Shown here piece by piece: positions 15,491-26,938 of a stretch of 64,000 nucleotides of DNA (its first letter is position 1; each line of letters begins with the position of its first letter). The translations under genes and the position numbers were made by a program. Below the pieces are notes generated by a model. The model was not told the DNA's origin, searched no databases, and saw only the letters and a list, made by a program, of their open reading frames with translations. Source of the stretch: Gloeobacter kilaueensis JS1 (GTDB lineage: Bacteria; Cyanobacteriota; Cyanobacteriia; Gloeobacterales; Gloeobacteraceae); contig NC_022600.1 in the NCBI RefSeq assembly GCF_000484535.1, positions 2,542,001-2,606,000 on the forward strand. Reading direction: 5' to 3'.

Positions 15491-15518
15491 CTGCGTAATG
15501 CCAGTGATAAGTAATGGC

Positions 15519-15542
15519 AGTGAAAGTGAAAGTGAAAGTGAA
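15519..15542 (+). repeat. Tandem hexamer AGTGAA x4
   Basis: Four perfect tandem copies of AGTGAA lie about 30 bases after the phosphoribosyltransferase stop. A similar AGTGA/AGTAA theme precedes them (15503-15520). Such short tandem repeats change length easily. Confidence 0.9.
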
Positions 15543-15630
15543 TAAGTAGACGAAGCAAAATAAGCGTCAGGTTTTGGGCTGGAGTGGGGAGCTGGTCGTT
15601 CTTTTGCTTTTTGGGTATTTGCTAAAACCG

Positions 15631-15722
15631 TCCCCCACCTCCCCATACCCCCCTGCCCCCCTCTCCCCTCCTTCCCCCGCCGGGGAAGGAGAGAAGAAGG
15701 GGGTTCACTGTAACTGGGCTGC
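15631..15722 (+). repeat. Dispersed GC-rich repeat, copy 1
   Basis: About 92 bases with a C-rich half, a central inverted segment (CCCCCGCCGGGG region) and a G-rich half ending in TTCACTGTAACTGGGCTGC. The reverse complement of 42419-42510 aligns along its whole length with scattered differences, and the last 20 or so bases are identical. Both copies lie between genes. It can fold into a long hairpin. Confidence 0.85.
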
Positions 15723-15747
15723 CGACGGGCCGGGTGCAGTCAGTCTT

Positions 15748-15823
15748 AGATTTGTCTCACTCCCCTCTCCCCTTGTGGGAGAGGGGCTGGGGGTGAGGGG
15801 TGAAATGGGTTTCAGATTTGTCT
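15748..15823. repeat. Small hairpin element with 10-base flanking direct repeat
   Basis: The sequence AGATTTGTCT occurs at 15748-15757 and again at 15814-15823. Between them lies a 56-base segment built around the inverted repeat CCTCTCCCC-TTGT-GGGAGAGG followed by a G-rich tail. The arrangement looks like a non-coding inserted element with a target duplication. The 10-base repeat could also be coincidence. Confidence 0.55.
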
Positions 15824-15888
15824 TATTTTTCTTCTGCTGCAAGGGACGCAGTGCTGCTTTGATTCAACGTTTAATTATCTGCGGGTAT

Positions 15889-17010
15889 CTAGACCCGCAG
15901 ATTGCGCTGCTCTGCCTCGGTGGGCGTCTCGTCTTCTAAACCCGCCCCGGTGGGCCGGGGAGCGACCCCCTGCTTTTCGCCTAGAAGCCCCTCGGGCCGG
16001 ATGAGCATTACCAGGATCATCGCCGCGCCAAAAAGAACGAGCCGGTACTCGGTAAAGCCCCTGAGCGCTTCGGGCAGAACGATCAAGATCAACGCCCCCA
16101 GCGCCACCCCCGGCACCGAGCCCATGCCGCCCAGGACCACCATCGAGAGCACCATCACCGACTCGATAAGAGTGAAACTGTCGGGGGAGACGTAGGTGAG
16201 CTGGCTGGCAAAGAGCACCCCGACCATACCGGCCAGCGCCGCCCCGGTGGCAAAGGCCAATAACTTCAGCCGCACCGTATCGATGCCCATCGCTGAGGCA
16301 GCGATCTCGTCCTCGCGGATCGCCACCCAGGCGCGACCGATGCGCGAACGCTTCAGGCGGCTGGTCATCCAGTAGATGCAACCTACAAAGGCGAGCGCAA
16401 TAAAATACAGCTGCAGCGGCTGATAGAGCGTGATCCAGCCAAAGCCCCCTGCGCTGAACCAGGGAATGGTCGGCCCCGGCACGTTGCTGATCCCGGCTGG
16501 CCCCTTGGTGAGCCAGTCGAGGTTGTTGAGCGAGATGCGGATGATTTCACCGAACCCGAGGGTGACGATTGCCAGATAATCGCCTCGCAGGCGCAGCGTC
16601 GGAGCCCCCAGCACCACCCCGAAAGCAGCTGCCAATAGAGCTGCCGCTGGTAGGGCCAGCCAGAAATTGAGGCCGTGGGAAAAGCCGATGGCGTAGGTGT
16701 AAGCGCCGACCGCAAAAAAGGCGATGTAGCCCAGATCCAATAGCCCCGCCATGCCGACGACGATGTTGAGCCCCATCGCGAGCACCATGTAGACCCCAAC
16801 CGTCACCGCCACATTCGCCAGGTAACTCGGCTGCGAGGTAAGTTGCATCAATACCGGAATAATCAACCCCACTCCCAGAAGACCGTAGCGCCTGAGCGGT
16901 TGGGGTAGAGCTTCAATCCATCTTTGAATCCGTTGCTGCACAAGTGGGCTCAACGCACAGGTCGGCAGGATTCTAGCATCGCTGGGGCTTCCCCCCTGCC
17001 AACAGCGCAA
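15889..17010 (-). CDS. livM: Branched-chain amino acid ABC transporter permease (LivM type)
   Basis: A 373-residue inner-membrane permease with about ten hydrophobic helices. Family marks are GLNIVVGMAGLLDLGYIAFFAVGAYTYA, LRLRGDYLAIVTLGFGEI and the EAA-like loop RIGRAWVAIREDEIAASAMGI. It would form the channel with LivH and two ATPases, none of which is in the window, so the genes for this transporter are scattered. The N-terminal 20 residues are poorly hydrophobic, and a later TTG or GTG start is possible. The gene starts 23 bases after the radical SAM gene. Confidence 0.88.
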   Translation of the reverse strand: MRCWQGGSPSDARILPTCALSPLVQQRIQRWIEALPQPLRRYGLLGVGLIIPVLMQLTSQPSYLANVAVTVGVYMVLAMGLNIVVGMAGLLDLGYIAFFAVGAYTYAIGFSHGLNFWLALPAAALLAAAFGVVLGAPTLRLRGDYLAIVTLGFGEIIRISLNNLDWLTKGPAGISNVPGPTIPWFSAGGFGWITLYQPLQLYFIALAFVGCIYWMTSRLKRSRIGRAWVAIREDEIAASAMGIDTVRLKLLAFATGAALAGMVGVLFASQLTYVSPDSFTLIESVMVLSMVVLGGMGSVPGVALGALILIVLPEALRGFTEYRLVLFGAAMILVMLIRPEGLLGEKQGVAPRPTGAGLEDETPTEAEQRNLRV

Positions 17011-17033
17011 GAAATTGCAAAGCAGATCAGCCC

Positions 17034-18341
17034 CTACGCACCCTGGCTTGCTTCCTGTGCCTCTATGTAAGCGAGAATCCGCTCTTTGTAGTTGTGCCGG
17101 AAACTGTCACAGCGATTGTCATGCAATACCGGATCCATCGCATGATGGGCACAACCACCCATACACACCGGCAGGGCGATACAGTTCGTGCATTCAGGAT
17201 CGGTGAATGGATCGTAGTTGAGCCACTTGTGTAATCGAGTGTTGCAGTTTTTGTAGTCGCTGATATGGCCAATCACCTCTTGTGGATTGCCGACGGAATA
17301 CGGGCACTTGTACAGTTCACCCTTGCTACCTACAATGAGTTCTTGAGAACGAACTGCCGTACAGGGCGTACCAACAGGTTTGGGCAACGAGGGCTTATCA
17401 AAACCGTAGCATTGAGCCAATTTCATAAACTCAAGCTTTATCTTCGCAAGCTCGATGTTGCTCAAGCAGCAGGAAGAGTAGCTAGCCGACGGTGCGGACG
17501 CTCCATCGTTGACGGCAACGATCTGTCCAGGATAGATGTGCAGCTTATCGCTCAGCCCCTCAGCCTGCAGAATCTGGAGAAGTTTCTCGACGTGACTCGT
17601 ATTCTCCTGGCTGAGGTTGACTCGAATAGAAACGGACAGGTAATTGACTGCATGATGAATGTTTGCAAGGATTTTCTTGAACGTGCCTTTGCCATTGACA
17701 AGAGGACGCATCAAATCATGGACTTCAGGCGGTCCATCAAGCGTGATTTGAGCTGTGGCTACCCGACGCTTACGTAAAAGGTCACAGGTTTGTTCATCCA
17801 GCAAATAGCCATTGGTAATTATGTCGGCAACATAGGTGACGCCTGCTCGATCACAGCGTTCAATAAATTGATCGGATAGAGCGAGCAGTTGCTCCTTGCC
17901 AAGTAAAGGCTCGCCGCCAAACCAGCAGACCTCAAATCGCTGAAGCTTTTCTATTTTTTCATCAAGGAACTGTAAAAGTGCCATCTGTACTTCGGATTGA
18001 AGTATCGAACCATGCTTGTCTTCAAAGCAGTAGGGACAGCTAAAGTTGCAACCTAGACTTGTAACGATAGTAAGACCAAGCCTTGGAGTATGGTGGCGAG
18101 TAGAGTGATATCTACTCGCCACCCACTTCACCTCATCAGCATTTTCAGGAATTATGACACGATTCTCGACAAGCTTTAGAAGCAGCTGCGGTGAAATACA
18201 GGCATCTTGAGAACTAGCGATAAAGCTCTGAAGTGCCTCGAACTCTGGGTGAGAAAGCCGGAAAAAACCTGAGGTGGATGTGTTGAATACATAGCTGAAA
18301 TGTACACGATGGATCCATATGTTGTACTTTGATTCCTGCAT
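17034..18341 (-). CDS. Radical SAM/SPASM peptide maturase
   Basis: A 435-residue radical SAM enzyme. The [4Fe-4S] site is CxxxCxxC at C98, C102 and C105 (CNFSCPYC), followed by FGGEPLL (141-147) and TLDGPPEVHD. The C-terminal SPASM domain supplies further cluster ligands (C346, C384, C387, C393, C397, C411; CTNCIALPVCMGGC). The first 95 or so residues look like the peptide-recognition region seen in RiPP maturases. The architecture predicts modification of a ribosomal peptide, probably the product of 18528-18860 upstream on the same strand. The chemistry (thioether, C-C or other crosslink) cannot be read off. Confidence 0.88.
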   Translation of the reverse strand: MQESKYNIWIHRVHFSYVFNTSTSGFFRLSHPEFEALQSFIASSQDACISPQLLLKLVENRVIIPENADEVKWVASRYHSTRHHTPRLGLTIVTSLGCNFSCPYCFEDKHGSILQSEVQMALLQFLDEKIEKLQRFEVCWFGGEPLLGKEQLLALSDQFIERCDRAGVTYVADIITNGYLLDEQTCDLLRKRRVATAQITLDGPPEVHDLMRPLVNGKGTFKKILANIHHAVNYLSVSIRVNLSQENTSHVEKLLQILQAEGLSDKLHIYPGQIVAVNDGASAPSASYSSCCLSNIELAKIKLEFMKLAQCYGFDKPSLPKPVGTPCTAVRSQELIVGSKGELYKCPYSVGNPQEVIGHISDYKNCNTRLHKWLNYDPFTDPECTNCIALPVCMGGCAHHAMDPVLHDNRCDSFRHNYKERILAYIEAQEASQGA

Positions 18342-18475
18342 CTCTCGCCTTTTATTGCTATCGAGCTGGTCAGTAGAGCTGAGAAAACGTCAGATTTCAT
18401 GCTAGGCTAAGCAATCCCTGAGCTATGACTCGAAGATCGGAGCTTTGATATTTACTCAGCTCCTATTATAGTAAG

Positions 18476-18495
18476 CAGTAACACGGGTATTACTG
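18476..18495 (-). promoter_or_regulatory. Hairpin between peptide and maturase genes
   Basis: CAGTAATACCCGTGTTACTG on the minus strand can form an 8-pair stem (one G-T pair) with a 4-base loop, between the 110-residue peptide gene and the maturase gene. No T-run follows; instead TATAAT (18470-18465) comes next. It may be a weak attenuator or RNA processing site that sets the peptide/enzyme ratio, or part of a separate maturase promoter. Confidence 0.35.
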
Positions 18496-18527
18496 TTTCA
18501 AAGTTGCAATAGTTTCGTTGGTATGGC

Positions 18528-18860
18528 TTACTTTGGTGGCCTTATACCCCCATTACAAACTTGGGGCTGTATACCCCCACCACACATACTCAGAAAATGA
18601 TCGAATGATGAGCCGCCCGCTTCCTGAATTTTTTTCGCAAGGGTTTCAATATCGACCGGTACTGATTTTTGGAGTGCTTGTAGCTCTGCACTACTCGGAT
18701 CAGTGAGATTGATTTTGCCCAGGCTGAGTTGGCTGGCGCTTTCGTCAGTAGGAGCAGTAGTGGTAGCTTCCGATGGTATAGCAGTAGCCGCGATCATGGC
18801 CGCGATCATACTGGCAGCCGCCAATAATGTAAGCAGATCTAACTTGGGATTCTTACGCAT
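18528..18860 (-). CDS. Small exported peptide, candidate RiPP precursor
   Basis: A 110-residue protein with an N-terminal hydrophobic helix (LLTLLAAASMIAAMIAATA, 10-28) behind a Lys/Arg start. A Thr/Ser-rich stretch follows, then an acidic amphipathic region (DIETLAKKIQEAGGSSFDHF), and it ends in CGGGIQPQVCNGGIRPPK (93-110). AGGGAG lies 8 bases before the ATG, so the gene is real. The Gly-rich two-Cys tail, the leader-like middle and the radical SAM/SPASM gene 186 bases downstream suggest a modified peptide core at the C-terminus. I know no family with this tail. The alternative is a small secreted protein with a disulfide. Confidence 0.6.
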   Translation of the reverse strand: MRKNPKLDLLTLLAAASMIAAMIAATAIPSEATTTAPTDESASQLSLGKINLTDPSSAELQALQKSVPVDIETLAKKIQEAGGSSFDHFLSMCGGGIQPQVCNGGIRPPK

Positions 18861-19126
18861 GTTGAGTGCTCCCTTGTGAGTACTTGACTTGAGGTTTAAA
18901 CTTTAATGATTTGCAGACTCGAAGTACAGCTCTGTAAGCTGTACTAGCAAGACAATACTCTACTGCTCTGGAGAATTCAATAGGCATATGTAAAGAGCAT
19001 TGTAAAGTTTTGTTTTTCTTGAGCCTTGTTTGTAAATCACAACATTACTCAGCCCCGACTGAAAAGCATATTTGGTAAATATGCTGTAAAAGTTGGCAAT
19101 TTCGCCTAGACGACAATGCATATCTC

Positions 19127-19333
19127 TTATCGGCTCCTTAGGGCAGGATCACACCTTTCGTTATATTGCATTTTATTATCAGGTTTAGCACCTTGTTGCT
19201 GAAGCCTATCAGCAATTTCGATGATTGCCCTGCGCACAGCATCAGGAAGATTATCCGCGTCATCAACACTGAGAGTGACTATTGCCTGATTGGCATTTGA
19301 CAGTTCGCTGGACTTTGCAGTTGGATCAGTCAT
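19127..19333 (-). CDS. Small protein coupled to the caspase-WD40 gene
   Basis: A 68-residue soluble protein (MTDPTAKSSELSNANQ...) with a central acidic strand/helix (VTLSVDDADNLPDAVRRAIIEIADRLQQQ) and a basic end, NERCDPALRSR. A perfect AGGAGGAA lies 6 bases before its ATG and overlaps the TAG stop of the 1707-residue caspase gene, so translation of the two is linked and they share a transcript. No family is recognised. It could be a regulator, a toxin or a proteolytic substrate of the caspase; these are guesses. Confidence 0.65.
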   Translation of the reverse strand: MTDPTAKSSELSNANQAIVTLSVDDADNLPDAVRRAIIEIADRLQQQGAKPDNKMQYNERCDPALRSR

Positions 19334-19345
19334 TGATTCTTCCTC

Positions 19346-22300
19346 CTAAGTATGGGGTTGTTGAGTAGAAAACTTTGAATCACAAAGACTTCGTTCTTTG
19401 CTCCTCAGATTTGCATTTAGTTGAAGATAGTCATATATCCATCTACAGGCTTTACTCGATAAGTCCTTCGTTGCAGATTGCCAGTTCCATAGTATTACTT
19501 TGCCATCGCCATCAGCAGAAACAATTTGTGAGCTATTGAGATTGAAGTCAGCAGTTCTTACTGCACTGTTTGAGTTCTGCAGTGTGGCGATCAAGAAACC
19601 TTCTGCATTCCAGATTTTAATGCTACCATCTCTGGAGCTTGAAACGATAGTGTGTCCATCTTTGCTAAAGTTAATATCGGTAACTTCTCTGTTGTGACCC
19701 TGAAGGTTTGCAATAAGCTTGCTGTCGTGGATTCTCCAGAGCTTAGCTGTTTGATCTTCGCTACTGGAAGCAAGAATAGCTCCATCAGGGCTAAAAGCGA
19801 GGCTTGTAACTACACCCGTGTGTCCTTTTAAGGTTTTTTTCGTTGAACCGTTCATATCTAATAAGATTACTGAGTTATTTTGGTTTGTTACTGCAATTAG
19901 TTTGCCATCAGGACTAAGAGCAATGGCAGGACCGGCTGCACAATCTCGAAAAGTTCTGATAAGAGTTCCGTCTTTGCGCCACAGCTTCACAGTTCCATCG
20001 GTACTGGCAGTAACGATTAAGCTTCCACTTGCTCCGTAGGCAACTGTGGAGACGGCACGTGTAAAGCCATTCAAGGTATGCAAAAGTTTTCCATCGGTTA
20101 AGCGCCAGATCCTAACTTTCAAGTTCTCGTAGGCTGCAGCAATCGTTAAGTTATCTGGGCTAAAACTGAGGGATGTTACTGTACCATCGGCCAGACTGCC
20201 GGTAGTTTTAAGCATTTTGATCAGTTTGCCATCCAGGTTCGTCAAGCGAATGATCTGATCAGTTCCTCCAGAGGCAACCAGTTTACCATCGGGACTAAAA
20301 CTAGCGACAGCATGGCCGCTATCATGGGTTTGGAGTCGGCGAACAAGTCCGTTGTCCATACTCCAAAGACGCATCGTACCATCTTCGCCAATGGAAACCA
20401 GTGATTTTCCACTGCGGTTAAACTTCAACTGGTGGATGCCACCTTGATGACCACGAATCGTTTCAACCAGATTGCCGCCCTCGGTATTCCAGATTTTGAT
20501 TGAGCTATCGTCACTTCCCGAGGCGAGCGAGCGGTTATCAGGGCTGAAAGCGATCGACCAGACGGCGTCCGTGTGCTCCTGCAAGGTTTTTAGAAGCAGG
20601 GTGTCACTGCTCTTCCATAGTTTTACAGTCTTATCCCAACTTGCTGATGCGATGAGCTTTCCATCGGGTGAGTAGCGAACTTTAAAGACAGTGTCTGTGT
20701 GACCTTTGAGCGTGTGCATCAAGCTGCCGTTCGCTAGATTCCAGAGCTTGATCTGCTTATCCGCACCTGAAGAAGCGAGAACGTGTCCATCTGGCCTGAA
20801 GCTGACGCTTGTCGCTCCGCCTTTGTGGGCGTTGAAAGTTTTAAGTAAGGTTCCGTTGTGAACGTTCCACAGTCTGACAGTGCCATCCCAACTCGCAGAA
20901 GCAAGGGTCTTGCTATCGGGGCTGAAGGCAATTTCCATCACACCGTCGGTGTGCCCGCGTAAAATCCGCAGCGGCTCCCCGCTAGCACTCCAGAGTCTGA
21001 TCGTGCCGTCCCGGCTGGAGGAGGCGAAGATGTTGCCCTGGGGGCTGTATTCGACGCAGTACACCCAATTCTCGTGGCCAGGCAGGGTCTTGAGTAGCTT
21101 GCCTTCAGGGCTCCAGAGTTTGAGCTGCCTTCCGGCGGTAGCGATGGTCTTTTCATCGTGACTGAAGCTGACGCCGCTGAGCCAGGCACCGTCCACCTGG
21201 ATGCGATTCATCTCCTGGGCGAGGTAGAGGATCTTGTTCAGCGTGTCCCTGGTGCTGGTCTTCAGGTCGTCCGGCACGCCAGCCGTGCGCTGCAAAAGCT
21301 GATTGGCCTTGATGCTCGCGATCAATGCTTCCAGTTGTTGGGAGGAAGCGAAGTAGCCGCCTGCCGAGGCGTTGAGCGCTTCGATCTCGCTGCGACGCGC
21401 ACTCTGGGTCTGCCCGTAGAAAAGAATGCCAAAGCCTAGAGCGGCTACGGCCAGAAGGACCATCAATCCGGCAATTCCCTGGGTGTAGCGCAGTTGTCTA
21501 TTGGCGCGGCGCTGTTGGGCGCGCTTTTCGGCGAGGCAGGCTTCGATGAACTGGCAAACTTCGGCGGAGAGTTCGTCGCTGTGGCGGGTATAGATTTCTT
21601 CGGCCTCAGCGAGGCGCACGCCGCGCAACAGAAAGTCCGGCTGAAAGGCACGCTGTCGCCAGAGCTGGGCCGCCTGCTCGATCTGCCGCTGGGCGCGCAG
21701 GCGGGTGCGGTTTTCATCGAGCCACCAGCGCAGGGTAGACCAGTAGCGAATCAGGATTTCGTGGGCGACTTCGACTGTGATTTCTTGCTTGAAGGCATCA
21801 AAGCTGTCGGCCTCGGCTATACCCCGGCTACGCCCGGCACTCTCGCTTGCTTCCGCCCCGACGACGACGAGCTTGGCCGCCGTCAGTGCCTGCAGCGTCT
21901 CCTCCACCAGGGGTGCAGGATAGCGCTCGACGCTTAATTCCGAGCGCGGGATGCGCCGTCGGGTGTCCTCGGTGCCCTCGCCCAACTGGGTGAGCGACAA
22001 AAAGATCCACCGGGCACACGCCTGGGACTCGGGGCTCAGGGCACTGTAGACCGCCTGGGCTTTGTTTTCGAGCGCTCCCCTCAAGCCCCCGATCTGCTGC
22101 TGGTAGCTCTGGAGGGTGAGGCCGCCGTCGGTGCGCTTCTCCCAGAGCTGTTCGAGGACGAATTCTAATAGAGGCAACTCGCCTGGTGACTGGGTCAACT
22201 CCTGCAGCAACACCTCTACCAGTTCCGGCTCGACGCCCAGGTTGACTTTTTGGGCGGGGCCGAGGATGACCTGGCGGTACTCCTGCTCGTTCAAGCAGGA

Positions 22301-24469
22301 GGGCACTAGTTCGTGGGAGCTGTTGAGGTAGGCGGCGAGGGCCGGAATTTCGAGGCAAGGAGCGATAAAGTCGGTTCTAAGTGTGACGACAAGCTTGAAG
22401 CGGTCGGCGGCGCAGAAGAGGGCACCGAGCAGCAAGTCGAGGAAGAGTTGGCGATCGGTAGGGGAGGCGAGGGTAAAGATCTCCTCGAACTGGTCGATGA
22501 CCAGAACGACCATCGGCTCGGGGCGCGTGCGCAGCCACTGCACAAAGCCTTCCGTTCCCAGGTGGAGCAGTCCCTCGATCCGCTCTTGATCGAGCGCACG
22601 TTCTCTGGGGGTGCCGCTGTCGGCCAGCCGTTGACTGAGGGCAGACAGGGGCTGCGCGCCCGGTTTGAAACTTTGAATCCACCAGTCCTGGGAGCCGGGC
22701 AGGTGCCGCCCCTGGCGCAGCTGGGCAATCAATCCCGCCTGGACGACGGAGGACTTGCCGCTGCCGGAAGCGCCGACCACTGCCAGAAAGGGAGCCTGGG
22801 CGATGTGCTGCAACAGCTGGCGGGTGAGCGCCTCGCGCCCAAAAAAATACGGGGCGTTCTGCTCGCCGAAGGCCCGCAGGCCCATGTAGGGGCAGATATT
22901 GAGGGCGGTGGTCCGAGCCTGCTGGGCAGTAGCAGCAAAATGGACCGGCAACACCTCGATCACGCTGGGCGGGCCGGACAGCTCGATGTGCAGGGCAAGA
23001 TCGCCCAGCGCCTGCAGCTGAAAGGCCCAGTTGGCTGCTGAAAGTCCCGCAGACGGTTCAGCCGCCTTGAGGGTGGCAAGCAGTGCCTGGGCAAAATGGT
23101 CGCCCGGACTGCTGGAGGCGATCAGGCACTGGCTGCGCCGGGCTCCGTTTCGCAACTGCTCGACCCATTCTTCGAGGGCAGAAGCTCCCGGACAGTCGAG
23201 AATAACCAGTTGCTGACCATTGCTGCAGCTGCGCAGTTCGCGATTCAACCACAGCAGGTGAATGCGCACGCCGTCTCCCAGTCTGAGCCAGCTATTTCCC
23301 TCCTCGTCGGTTTCAAGCTGCCCGCGCAGGTAGAGCACAACCGTTTCGCCCGTTGCGGCGGACGGGGAAAGATTGCCCGGACGCAAGATGGCCTGGATTG
23401 CCTCGCGCACCTGCCGCCAGTCGCTACTGGGTCGCGGCCAAAAATCCAGCTCGTCGAAGTTGCCCTTCTGGCGAAGCATGCGTCCCAGGGCCAGGGTGGT
23501 CTCCGCCTCATCTGCTAAAGCATCGATCACCAGGGCCCGGCGCGGTCGGGCCGCCTGCAGGCTGCTCGGGCGGGTGCCGATTACCAGTTCGCCGACAAAT
23601 TCGACGATCTTTTTCGGAGTCTGGAGCGAGTAAAGGGCGTGCTGCTCGCCGACGCCCCGCCGGGCGCGCTGGCTATTTTCGAGGCGCAGTTGCTGGTTGA
23701 CGTTGTCGATGTAGCGCAGGGTGCCGTGATAGACGTACTTGTAGAGGCCGTCCATCTCGATGAGCCCCTCGGCATTGGCCGCCTCGCCGCGCAGTCCGCG
23801 CATCAAAAAGTAGGTGAACACACCGTGGCCAAGGCCCGGAAACTCCCAGGACTGCTGATCCCGGTCGCAGGAGAGCATCGCGTAAAAGCCCCGGCTCTGG
23901 GCAGCGTACTCCCGCAGAGGTTCGACGAGGCCGGCGGTCGGATCGCTGCTGCTTGTTTCTGCGGAGGCGCTGCCTTGCAAGCGCAGGCTGCCGCTGTGGC
24001 AGGCGTCGAGCCAGACCAGTTGCTGCCGGGCCCGGCAATTGCCGAAGCGCAAAAGCAACTGCCGCAGACCCAGGCCGGTGTCGGTGAGGGCGTCGAAGCG
24101 GGTGTCCGCCAGGCAGAGTATTGTCTGAGCGCTCGCCGGATCGAGAACGCCGTGGCCACAAAAATAAACGAGCAGCGTGTCCTGGGGCATAGCCTCGGCG
24201 ACGATCCGATCGAGGCTGGCGGCGATAGCCCTGTGGGTGGGCGGACTCTTGGCAAAGTCGTGGTGGATCAGCAGTTCTTTATTAGGAAATGGTGCCGTCG
24301 CCTCCAGCAGCGCCTCGGCAATTCCCTCACAATCGGCAGCACAATAGCCGAGGGGGGCCAGCGGCGATTCTTGATACTGGTTGACGCCGATGAGCAACAG
24401 CCACAACTTCGCCTCACCACTGGTGAGGACGCGGGCGCTGCGGCTGCTACCGACGACACGAGGAGGCAT
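19346..24469 (-). CDS. Caspase / nSTAND ATPase / WD40 signalling protein
   Basis: A 1707-residue protein. An active-looking caspase (C14) domain occupies about 20-290, with catalytic His106 (CGHG) and Cys157 (DACHSG). A second caspase-like segment (about 305-500) keeps LVILDCPGAS but has VVLYLRGQL where the His motif should be, so it looks inactive. The nSTAND ATPase region starts at about 525 (CPYMGLRAFGEQNAPYFFGRE) with Walker A GASGSGKSS (566-574) and Walker B VLVIDQFEEI. One membrane helix lies near 993-1016, then about 14 WD40 repeats (about 1095-1675), enough for two propellers. The expected role is to sense a trigger, oligomerise through the ATPase and release proteolysis. The WD40 part is lower in GC than the N-terminal half. 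Confidence 0.9.
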   Translation of the reverse strand: MPPRVVGSSRSARVLTSGEAKLWLLLIGVNQYQESPLAPLGYCAADCEGIAEALLEATAPFPNKELLIHHDFAKSPPTHRAIAASLDRIVAEAMPQDTLLVYFCGHGVLDPASAQTILCLADTRFDALTDTGLGLRQLLLRFGNCRARQQLVWLDACHSGSLRLQGSASAETSSSDPTAGLVEPLREYAAQSRGFYAMLSCDRDQQSWEFPGLGHGVFTYFLMRGLRGEAANAEGLIEMDGLYKYVYHGTLRYIDNVNQQLRLENSQRARRGVGEQHALYSLQTPKKIVEFVGELVIGTRPSSLQAARPRRALVIDALADEAETTLALGRMLRQKGNFDELDFWPRPSSDWRQVREAIQAILRPGNLSPSAATGETVVLYLRGQLETDEEGNSWLRLGDGVRIHLLWLNRELRSCSNGQQLVILDCPGASALEEWVEQLRNGARRSQCLIASSSPGDHFAQALLATLKAAEPSAGLSAANWAFQLQALGDLALHIELSGPPSVIEVLPVHFAATAQQARTTALNICPYMGLRAFGEQNAPYFFGREALTRQLLQHIAQAPFLAVVGASGSGKSSVVQAGLIAQLRQGRHLPGSQDWWIQSFKPGAQPLSALSQRLADSGTPRERALDQERIEGLLHLGTEGFVQWLRTRPEPMVVLVIDQFEEIFTLASPTDRQLFLDLLLGALFCAADRFKLVVTLRTDFIAPCLEIPALAAYLNSSHELVPSCLNEQEYRQVILGPAQKVNLGVEPELVEVLLQELTQSPGELPLLEFVLEQLWEKRTDGGLTLQSYQQQIGGLRGALENKAQAVYSALSPESQACARWIFLSLTQLGEGTEDTRRRIPRSELSVERYPAPLVEETLQALTAAKLVVVGAEASESAGRSRGIAEADSFDAFKQEITVEVAHEILIRYWSTLRWWLDENRTRLRAQRQIEQAAQLWRQRAFQPDFLLRGVRLAEAEEIYTRHSDELSAEVCQFIEACLAEKRAQQRRANRQLRYTQGIAGLMVLLAVAALGFGILFYGQTQSARRSEIEALNASAGGYFASSQQLEALIASIKANQLLQRTAGVPDDLKTSTRDTLNKILYLAQEMNRIQVDGAWLSGVSFSHDEKTIATAGRQLKLWSPEGKLLKTLPGHENWVYCVEYSPQGNIFASSSRDGTIRLWSASGEPLRILRGHTDGVMEIAFSPDSKTLASASWDGTVRLWNVHNGTLLKTFNAHKGGATSVSFRPDGHVLASSGADKQIKLWNLANGSLMHTLKGHTDTVFKVRYSPDGKLIASASWDKTVKLWKSSDTLLLKTLQEHTDAVWSIAFSPDNRSLASGSDDSSIKIWNTEGGNLVETIRGHQGGIHQLKFNRSGKSLVSIGEDGTMRLWSMDNGLVRRLQTHDSGHAVASFSPDGKLVASGGTDQIIRLTNLDGKLIKMLKTTGSLADGTVTSLSFSPDNLTIAAAYENLKVRIWRLTDGKLLHTLNGFTRAVSTVAYGASGSLIVTASTDGTVKLWRKDGTLIRTFRDCAAGPAIALSPDGKLIAVTNQNNSVILLDMNGSTKKTLKGHTGVVTSLAFSPDGAILASSSEDQTAKLWRIHDSKLIANLQGHNREVTDINFSKDGHTIVSSSRDGSIKIWNAEGFLIATLQNSNSAVRTADFNLNSSQIVSADGDGKVILWNWQSATKDLSSKACRWIYDYLQLNANLRSKERSLCDSKFSTQQPHT

Positions 24470-24622
24470 AATTTCGGACCAGCAGTACTACCCGATAGTG
24501 GAGCGTCCTTCTTTTTATGCAGGCAATTTTTCTATTTATGAACAGTTAATGAGAGAATTTTTCTCCATTCAGGAGTTTTTGTAGTTCTTGCTACACCGTC
24601 GTAAGCTGCCGGGAAAGTCTGG

Positions 24623-26080
24623 TCACAACACTGGCGTGAGCAGGCGCGTGACTCGAACGGCGAGCTTGAACCAGAAGGGCTTCTTGCCGTAGTCGCTTAA
24701 ATCGACGGCGCGGGCGCGCTCAAAGTCTGCCTCCAGCATCTGCTCGACAGCGGCGATGAAATCCGGGTGGGCGACAAAGTTCATCACCTCGAAGTTGAGC
24801 AAAAAGGAGCGGTTGTCGAGGTTGACCGTGCCGACACCGGCCAGTTGCTCGTCGATCAAGACCACTTTTTGGTGCATAAAGCCGGGTTCGTAGCGGAAGA
24901 CGTCGATGCCTGCCAGGGCCAGCTCGTCGTAGTACGAAAAAGAACACAGGTACGGGCTGATGTGATCGGGGTGGCCCGGCAGCAGCAGCCGCACATCGAC
25001 GCCGCGCAGCGCCGCGAGCTTCAAAGCAGCCAGAATCGAATCGTCCGGCACGAAGTACGGGGTAGCGATCCAGAGCCGTTTTTGGGCGCGGCTAATCACA
25101 TCGAGATAAAAGAGGGTACAGGCGGGCTGCCGGTCCGCCGGTCCGGTAGGTAGAACGAACACGGCGGCGTCGGTCTTGAGGTCGGCTTTGACCGCAAAAC
25201 TGACATCGGGCAACTCGCGGGTGGCCCAGTACCAGTCCTGCAAAAAGCAGTACTGCAGACACTGCACCGACGGTCCACTGAGCTGGATATGGGTGTCGCG
25301 CCAGGGGCAGAGGCGCGGATTCTTGCTCCGGCCCAGGTACTCGTCGCCAATATTGAGGCCACCGACGTAAGCCTGCTCGCCATCGACCACCAGGATCTTG
25401 CGGTGGTTGCGAAAGTTGATCTGAAAGCGGTTGCGCCAGCCGCCGCGCGTGGTGCCAAAAGCTTTGACCTGGACGTTCTCCTTGCCCAGGGCATCGATGT
25501 AGTGGCGGGGCAACTTCTGGGAGCCAATCTCGTCGTAGAGAAAACAGACGCAGACGCCCTCCCTTGCGCGGGCAATCAGCGCGTCGCGAAAAAATCGACC
25601 AGTGTCGTCGTCCTCGACGATATAAGACTGGAGCAGGATATAGCGCTTTGCTGAGGCAATTGCTGCCAGCATCGCATCGAAGGTTTGCTTGCCATCGATT
25701 AACAATTTGACCGCGTTGCCCGAAGTAAACGGGATCAAAGAAAGGGCAGAAGCCAGCGATTGAAACTCGGTGAGCCTCTCTGCAGGGACAATTTTGAACT
25801 CCTGGATTTCTTCGAGTCCTTCGCGAATCAATTCCTGGTGCTCACGGTAGGCTTCGCGCACCACCGCGTTGTAGCCCAAAAATTTGTTTCTGCCCAGGAT
25901 CCAGTACAGCGGAATGGCAAGCCACGGGAAGGTGATCAAAGAAATGCTCCAGGCCACCGCTCCTTTGGAGGAGCGCACGTTCAATACAGCGTGGGCCGCG
26001 TTGAGAATGCCGGTGCTGTGGACGATGAAGACGATGGCACCGACAATATGGGGGAGGTAGCGACTCTCGATTCCAAACAT
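24623..26080 (-). CDS. cls: Cardiolipin synthase
   Basis: A 485-residue phospholipase D-type enzyme that joins phosphatidyl groups to make cardiolipin at the membrane. Two N-terminal membrane helices (about 8-65) precede the two HKD motifs, NHRKILVVDGEQAYVGGLN and MHQKVVLIDEQLAGVGTVN. The conserved STGILNAAHAV and YWILGRNKF fit the Cls group. It is followed on the same strand by an EEP hydrolase and an ankyrin gene. Confidence 0.9.
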   Translation of the reverse strand: MFGIESRYLPHIVGAIVFIVHSTGILNAAHAVLNVRSSKGAVAWSISLITFPWLAIPLYWILGRNKFLGYNAVVREAYREHQELIREGLEEIQEFKIVPAERLTEFQSLASALSLIPFTSGNAVKLLIDGKQTFDAMLAAIASAKRYILLQSYIVEDDDTGRFFRDALIARAREGVCVCFLYDEIGSQKLPRHYIDALGKENVQVKAFGTTRGGWRNRFQINFRNHRKILVVDGEQAYVGGLNIGDEYLGRSKNPRLCPWRDTHIQLSGPSVQCLQYCFLQDWYWATRELPDVSFAVKADLKTDAAVFVLPTGPADRQPACTLFYLDVISRAQKRLWIATPYFVPDDSILAALKLAALRGVDVRLLLPGHPDHISPYLCSFSYYDELALAGIDVFRYEPGFMHQKVVLIDEQLAGVGTVNLDNRSFLLNFEVMNFVAHPDFIAAVEQMLEADFERARAVDLSDYGKKPFWFKLAVRVTRLLTPVL

Positions 26081-26107
26081 GCCGGCAGCCTCGTCGTCGG
26101 GTGGCTT

Positions 26108-26938
26108 CTAGAGAGCTTCCGCCAGCCGGAAGCTTGCGAGCAGGGGCTTGTGGTCGGAGGAAGTGACCGCATCGAGCACCGTTGCGGCACTATTCTCCCG
26201 CAGGCCGCTGGCGAAAATATAATCGAGCGGCGGTGAATTCAAAAATCGCTTGATCTTCTGCCTTTCAACGGACGAGAACGCGGCAGAGTGCAGGTTGAAC
26301 TGCCGGCAAAACCGCTCAAGACAGGCAGCCCTGGAACGGCTCCAGGTATTAAAATCTCCCGATAAGATGACGGGTCCCCGGTGGCTCTGGATAATCGTCT
26401 GCAGGCTCGCCAGCTGGGCTTTGAACTTGCTTAAGTTGCTGAAATTGATCAGGTGGCAGTTGATGGTGAGCAGAGCCTGCTGGGTATCGTTGATCGCGTG
26501 GGTCGTCGCGAGCGAAATCTTCGGTGTCCTGGCAATCGGCTCAAAGTGTTCGGTCACGATCGACTCGGTAGCGAGGGTCTGGGCTCTGGCAGCGGTGAGA
26601 ATACCGGAGTAGGCCCGGTGGTGGGCGTCGATAAAATTGGGTGCAAAGTGCCAGTGCATTCCAGCCAGTTCAAGCGCCTGCTCCGCCTGGATCTCGAAGC
26701 GCACTTCCTGCAGCAAAATCAGATCGGGATTGTACTGCGCAACGATGGCGGCAAAATCCTCTGCCCAGCTTTGTTTGTAATTGTTCTTGGCGACATTCCA
26801 GCTCAGCACGCGAATGCGCGTGCGTTCAAGGCCCGTTGCCCGCACCGGCTTTCCGGCAATCGTCTTTTGCTGCGCCCGCACAAAGCGCCGCGCCGGTAAA
26901 AACCGTCTCAGCCACGGTTCGATCGGATGTTCTGCCAT
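26108..26938 (-). CDS. Endonuclease/exonuclease/phosphatase family protein
   Basis: A 276-residue protein of the EEP superfamily. Motifs in order are VLSWNVAKNN (metal site), LILLQEVRFEI (catalytic Glu), GDFNTWSR and the C-terminal SDHKPLLASF, so the metal-dependent phosphoesterase site is complete. Substrates in this superfamily range from DNA to phospholipids. The location directly upstream of the cardiolipin synthase on the same strand hints at a phosphodiester lipid substrate, as an inference only. No signal peptide is seen. Confidence 0.82.
   Translation of the reverse strand: MAEHPIEPWLRRFLPARRFVRAQQKTIAGKPVRATGLERTRIRVLSWNVAKNNYKQSWAEDFAAIVAQYNPDLILLQEVRFEIQAEQALELAGMHWHFAPNFIDAHHRAYSGILTAARAQTLATESIVTEHFEPIARTPKISLATTHAINDTQQALLTINCHLINFSNLSKFKAQLASLQTIIQSHRGPVILSGDFNTWSRSRAACLERFCRQFNLHSAAFSSVERQKIKRFLNSPPLDYIFASGLRENSAATVLDAVTSSDHKPLLASFRLAEAL

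Follow-up and report, generated by a model that had tools for sequence, protein, structure and literature searches.

We found that in Gloeobacter kilaueensis JS1 a radical SAM/SPASM peptide maturase and two small ORFs lie beside a gene for a caspase-STAND-WD40 protein, and that the propeller, the peptide gene, and most of the maturase diverge together among congeners. We propose a RiPP locus that is coupled to a caspase-STAND-WD40 protein tethered to the membrane and is organized as a swappable cassette, in which the modified peptide would be the ligand of the propeller. We give this explanation as a whole a probability of about 0.5. We are more certain of a RiPP cassette attached to a caspase-STAND protein than of the ligand step or of what the 110-amino-acid (110-aa) ORF is. 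Below, the window is the whole stretch of 64,000 nucleotides that was analyzed.

Table 1. Features of the locus, in window positions
Feature	Position	Strand	Basis
Caspase-nSTAND1 NTPase-TM helix-WD40 propeller protein, 1707 aa	19346..24469	minus	Domain profiles, motifs
Caspase domain, His/Cys dyad motifs YFCGHG and DACHSG intact	23726..24397	minus	Profile, motifs
nSTAND1 NTPase domain, P-loop GASGSGKSS (409.7 bits)	21647..22891	minus	Profile, motif
Predicted TM helix, residues 999-1017, basic N-side (N-in by charge)	21419..21475	minus	Sequence inspection
WD40 propeller, hypervariable between congeners	19490..21202	minus	Profile, congener comparison
Hypervariable cassette (propeller, precursor or precursors, first three quarters of maturase)	17350..21319	minus	Homology; boundaries transferred from congeners, approximate
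68-aa ORF, conserved-type candidate precursor, one-Cys tail NERCDPALRSR	19127..19333	minus	Position, leader homology, ribosome site
Leader stretch AIVTLSVDDADNLPDAVRRAIIEIADRLQQ of 68-aa ORF	19196..19285	minus	Comparison with Acidimicrobiia precursors
110-aa ORF, candidate extra substrate of this locus only	18528..18860	minus	Sequence, ATG start, ribosome site
Putative Sec signal peptide, residues 1-32 of 110-aa ORF	18765..18860	minus	Sequence and hydropathy; cleavage site by eye
Putative core, tandem 9-residue repeat CGGGIQPQV / CNGGIRPPK, residues 93-110 of 110-aa ORF	18531..18584	minus	Sequence
Radical SAM/SPASM peptide maturase, 435 aa, N-terminal RRE-like domain	17034..18341	minus	Family profiles, motifs, structure model
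RRE-like leader-binding domain, residues 1-82 of maturase	18096..18341	minus	Secondary structure of model; assigned by topology

The caspase-STAND-WD40 gene and its locus

Caspase-STAND-WD40 proteins are widespread among cyanobacteria, and to our knowledge a trigger has been described for few of them. All the relevant genes of the window locus are on the minus strand, and we found the caspase-STAND-WD40 gene, the small ORF or ORFs, and the maturase gene in the same order and on the same strand in four congeneric genomes. All four caspase-STAND proteins (window plus congeners) have the caspase dyad motifs, the P-loop, and the TM helix. Examined as a STAND/caspase conflict system, the window protein has a caspase effector with its active-site dyad fused to a STAND NTPase; it scored 124.9 bits against the EACC1-associated caspases (NF047832), below the cutoff of 140. 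The orientation of the propeller across the membrane is a prediction. We found no dedicated transporter or leader peptidase in the Gloeobacter loci and no Rfam match in window positions 15500 to 26500, and promoter and terminator scans gave matches that were not above chance.

The maturase and its candidate precursors

An earlier note on this DNA described an enzyme with CxxxCxxC and SPASM cluster ligands and took it for a peptide maturase, and we agree on both counts. The CxxxCxxC motif is C98, C102, and C105 (PF04055, 59.2 bits against a cutoff of 29.5), and the SPASM set is complete (C327-x13-G-x4-C346 and C384xxC387x5C393x3C397x13C411). C327, G341, C346, C384, C387, C393, C397, and C411 are invariant in 11 relatives, and the seven cysteines among them follow the SPASM pattern for two auxiliary clusters. 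The best library families were nearly all RiPP maturases (TIGR04463, then the Clo7bot, CefB, geopeptide, and FlmE/OhkG types), and the FxsB model was absent from the 25 best. The enzyme scored 280.5 bits for TIGR04463 (cutoff 525), 251.8 for Clo7bot (TIGR04334) and 202.2 for CefB (NF038107) (cutoff 600 each), and 56.8 for GrrM (TIGR04261; cutoff 310). Since the scores for all of these families, the geopeptide and FlmE/OhkG types included, are far below the cutoffs, we place it outside the named families, as a peptide-maturase-like enzyme.

In the structure model (mean pLDDT, 77), the N-terminal unit has three strands and three helices and is of the RRE kind. By both sequence and fold, the closest solved structure is CteB (PDB 5WHY/5WGG), which makes thioether formation the most likely chemistry. 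The maturase has relatives at 55 to 60% identity in three congeners (L018, L019, and L020), with a fragment in G104, and at 51 to 54% identity in two Acidimicrobiia (L004 and L005); plasmid relatives are all under about 34%. A phylum-wide profile search found, beyond the window, only one distant match at the threshold used.

The earlier note missed the caspase-STAND gene and also the 68-aa ORF. This ORF starts 12 bp behind the caspase-STAND gene, and its AGGAGG ribosome site (19342 to 19347) overlaps the stop codon of that gene. All three complete congeneric loci have a single small ORF (68, 111, and 89 aa) between the caspase-STAND gene and the enzyme, whereas the window has two; the 68-aa ORF is the positional equivalent of the congeners' ORF. 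A profile built from the Acidimicrobiia precursors matches its leader (p = 0.0017 against shuffles; pairwise p = 0.005 to 0.016); those precursors are Cys-rich and adjoin the enzymes 51 to 54% identical to the window's maturase. The small peptides of L018 and L020 are homologous to each other. Neither these two nor the G013 peptide matched the Acidimicrobiia profile significantly, so at those loci the precursor is assigned by position, not by sequence. The tails of the small ORFs vary strongly (FCRAYEPY in L018, FCKFYKPD in L020, and RCDPALRSR in the window's 68-aa ORF), and those of the Acidimicrobiia and G013 precursors have several cysteines, partly as C-x-x-K (five of five in G013). We suggest that the 68-aa ORF, rather than the 110-aa ORF, is the better candidate partner of the maturase. 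The search target is thereby corrected: as a substrate, the 68-aa ORF should be tried ahead of the exported-looking 110-aa ORF.

The 110-aa ORF was previously read as a peptide with a signal-like N terminus and a two-Cys, Gly-rich tail, fitting no described precursor class. Its features are as described, and our library search of the window's peptides gave no match to a known precursor family. A convincing ribosome site, AAGGGAG at 18869 to 18875, read from the sequence, precedes its ATG. The product has a basic N terminus, a strongly hydrophobic stretch by hydropathy (residues ~8 to 28), a signal-peptidase-like site between SEA and TT placed by eye, and a mildly acidic, leader-like middle, and it ends in ...MCGGGIQPQVCNGGIRPPK. 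This tail is a tandem repeat whose units are identical at 5/9 residues and 18/27 bases; when the last 40 residues were shuffled, 0.05% of the shuffles gave a 9+9 tandem as good as this one. The tail is plausible as a repeated core, in line with the earlier reading of a peptide core at the C terminus. As a conserved partner, the ORF did not hold up: it occurs in one genome only, with no recognizable homologue in 9 order-level or 291 class-level genomes, and the congeners that keep the maturase all lack it. What recurs is the enzyme with a small ORF, not the enzyme with the 110-aa ORF. Its leader matches the precursor family marginally (p = 0.003 with all eight peptides and 0.02 to 0.3 with subsets, in a post hoc profile comparison). 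A gap of 266 bp separates it from the 68-aa ORF, and the two may be transcribed separately.

In our estimate, the chance that the 110-aa ORF is a second, locus-specific substrate of the maturase is about even. It could instead encode an exported RiPP with a Cys/Gly core and be the enzyme's main precursor and actual partner, the 68-aa ORF being incidental. It is the ORF nearest to the enzyme and has a tandem-duplicated Cys tail, and exported Cys/Gly-repeat peptides adjoin distantly related enzymes in L023 and L024. However, it is missing from every congener that retains the enzyme, and it is the 68-aa ORF that has homologous leaders beside related enzymes of another phylum; we therefore consider this assignment unlikely. 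Another view is that only the 68-aa peptide is matured and that the 110-aa ORF, a newcomer to the cassette, encodes a small secreted protein that stays unmodified. In favor of this, the ORF has no homologue, a large upstream gap of its own, a weak leader match, and a signal peptide that the other precursors of the maturase subfamily do not show. Against it, the ORF is flanked by precursor and maturase, all on one strand, and its repeat core places Cys at the extreme C terminus. We regard this view as possible rather than probable.

The genome also encodes two YhhB/FxsB-like maturases (L002:1170-2649 and L003:808-2213), each with a small ORF of ~76 aa next to it; in L003 this ORF includes a hydrophobic segment. 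We rejected the 110-aa ORF as a substrate of these enzymes because its tail has no aromatic residue: CGGGIQPQVCNGGIRPPK contains no F, W, Y, or H. The exported peptides of L023 (1625-2119) and L024 (8843-9511), from two genomes of another cyanobacterial family, have repeats CDGGGSTNTGGCAASPIPG, fit no named family, and lie upstream of a TIGR04463-like maturase; the peptide is clearly confined to these two genomes. We did not accept homology between them and the 110-aa ORF: C/G repeats are common to both, but the sequences support it only weakly (p = 0.034 against the whole precursor family). Given these exported peptides beside distant enzymes, an exported precursor may nevertheless exist in the window.

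Related loci were also seen elsewhere. L004 (1161-11709; Acidimicrobiia) has three tandem Cys-rich precursors with a 54% identical maturase, and its neighbors are an FHA-ABC exporter, a GAF protein, a subtilase, and a kinase with a Kelch propeller. It looks like a fuller version of the same RiPP family, and its protease, signaling enzyme, and propeller parallel the window in a way that is suggestive only. L026 (7711-10972) has an 82-aa peptide ending in Cys (DDWTCVNVAC) and a related maturase, followed one gene further by a flavoprotein of the Cys-decarboxylase kind (CypD/CoaBC-like); radical SAM chemistry may be combined there with C-terminal Cys decarboxylation. In L032 (2789-3129), from a 1.9-Mb genome of the window's phylum, two near-identical 53-aa small ORFs with FGGNEPIKVECKGDGIVEVPTNPEKATMMLTVF tails stand in tandem directly upstream of a distant maturase relative. 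In L025 (1340-1609), from the family of the window organism, a 24% identical maturase is preceded by an 89-aa peptide whose tail contains GGRLCGGSGTCLAIF. On a Methylomagnum plasmid (L033:3750-10709), a "Cys-every-fifth" precursor (CefA), a TIGR04463 maturase, a radical SAM C-methyltransferase, and a 2OG-Fe(II) oxygenase follow in a row.

Divergence of the cassette among congeners

We compared the three closer congeners by DNA-level alignment; four genomes carry the locus. DNA identity was about 74 to 99% in the caspase-STAND half and 84 to 98% past the maturase end, with a trough of 39 to 73% between. Among congeners, the propeller, the precursor, and most of the maturase drop to 39 to 70% identity, and identity rises again at the maturase end and in the gene that follows downstream. 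At the protein level, the caspase-STAND half is 86 to 95% identical and the WD40 region 39 to 66%. Among the three closer congeners, dS was 0.20 to 0.56 in the caspase-STAND half and 0.34 in the downstream gene, and synonymous sites were saturated in the WD40 region and in maturase residues 1 to 330 (pS, 0.75 to 0.83). The G061 maturase is about equally distant from that of G013 (dN, 0.45) and that of the window (dN, 0.38), whereas the caspase-STAND half follows the species signal (dN, 0.08 versus 0.30).

As a control, we used ortholog pairs of caspase-STAND-WD40 paralogues that have no maturase. Both halves of these were equally high in identity (WD40, 93 to 97%; dS, about 0.1), although the control pairs are closer (dS, about 0.1 to 0.16) than the focal pairs (dS, 0.2 to 0.56). 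Since the controls show no drop, the strong divergence is special to the peptide-linked copy. Each Gloeobacter genome has several caspase-nSTAND-WD40 paralogues (L069 to L078), nearly invariant between species; one copy, L075, looks truncated and lies beside a transposase-like ORF. We dropped low G+C as a sign of a foreign cassette because it is just as low in several WD40 regions of the paralogues.

Recombination between repeats can alter WD40 sequences rapidly, which would suit relaxed selection or decay, rather than allele exchange, as the source of the divergence. We regard this as very improbable: the ORFs are all intact, the metal ligands and the caspase dyad are conserved, pN is much lower than pS, and identity returns at the maturase end. 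Saturated synonymous divergence with pN much lower than pS points to old intact alleles and exchange and not to decay or merely fast adaptive change. On these comparisons, the pattern appears to be that of an exchangeable receptor-peptide-maturase cassette, with exchange and unusual mutation weighed on few pairs from the four genomes. Linked divergence and exchange of this kind would also explain how a locus-specific ORF such as the 110-aa ORF can occur here.

Proposed mechanism and known systems

We propose that the N-terminal RRE-like domain of the maturase binds the leaders of small peptides encoded in the locus and that the enzyme crosslinks the cysteine or cysteines in the C-terminal tails of these peptides, thioethers being the most likely product. 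The conserved-type precursor would be the 68-aa ORF; the 110-aa peptide, as a locus-specific second, would be modified in the cytoplasm and then exported by Sec. The modified peptide would act as a ligand of the WD40 propeller, activating or silencing, and the state of the propeller would gate the STAND switch and the caspase. The joint divergence of propeller, peptide, and maturase on a conserved caspase-STAND half would be that of a swappable cassette. Joint divergence on a conserved half is as expected of a strain-specific signal/receptor pair in self or kin recognition or conflict, and the function may be that of a self or kin signal that gates the caspase. It is a tentative extension that modified peptide, maturase, and propeller are inherited as interchangeable matched types, each cell's own peptide setting or silencing its own death or stress switch. 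The propeller varies with the peptide gene and the maturase, and the sister proteins do not, which nominates a specific modified peptide as the ligand. The cassette allows a direct genetic test of the trigger of a caspase-STAND-WD40 protein.

Alternatively, the locus could serve anti-phage defense or abortive infection, with the propeller as the sensor of an invader and the modified peptide as a toxin or amplifier, a role proposed for FxSxx peptides in NTP-dependent conflict systems (PMC7159879). The caspase-STAND architecture and the coupling of peptide and maturase resemble those systems, and sensors are also diversified by arms races. Taken alone, however, such a system leaves unexplained why maturase and propeller diverge together when paralogous propellers do not, and we hold it as possible rather than probable.

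No paper that names TIGR04463 or describes this locus turned up in full-text literature searches. The coupling of a modified peptide to an NTPase conflict system is of a known kind; in the literature searched we found no description of the maturase subfamily, the fused partner, or the linked variation. The TIGR04463, Clo7bot, and CefB maturases, the top-scoring families, align with the window's enzyme over nearly full length, but the scores fall short (280/525, 252/600, and 202/600 bits) and the window's precursors fit none of the library's precursor families. CteB, the SCIFF thioether maturase, shares the layout of RRE, radical SAM, and SPASM domains; it is only about 20% identical to the window's maturase, and the SCIFF precursor and genomic setting are unlike the window's.

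Radical SAM-modified FxSxx peptides are coupled to NTP-dependent conflict systems (eLife 2020, PMC7159879), and in these FxsA/FxsB modules, as here, a radical SAM/SPASM enzyme and a small peptide are coupled to an NTPase-type system. In contrast, the window's tails end in RSR and PPK and lack FxSxx, the maturase is of another subfamily, no MoxR or vWA gene adjoins, and effector and sensor are one caspase-nSTAND-TM-WD40 protein. The GrrA/GrrM (OscA/OscB) cyclophane peptides are similar in that a cyanobacterial Gly-rich, exported-looking precursor lies beside a radical SAM/SPASM enzyme, but the window's maturase scores 57/310 for TIGR04261, and three-residue cyclophane chemistry requires an aromatic residue, of which the 110-aa tail has none. 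In the staphylococcal agr groups, the peptide, the processing protein, and the sensor region of the receptor co-vary between conserved flanks. The window cassette resembles agr in how it would work, with peptide, processing protein, and sensor region varying together; the two have no sequence relation, and the output is a caspase-STAND protein here and a two-component kinase in agr.
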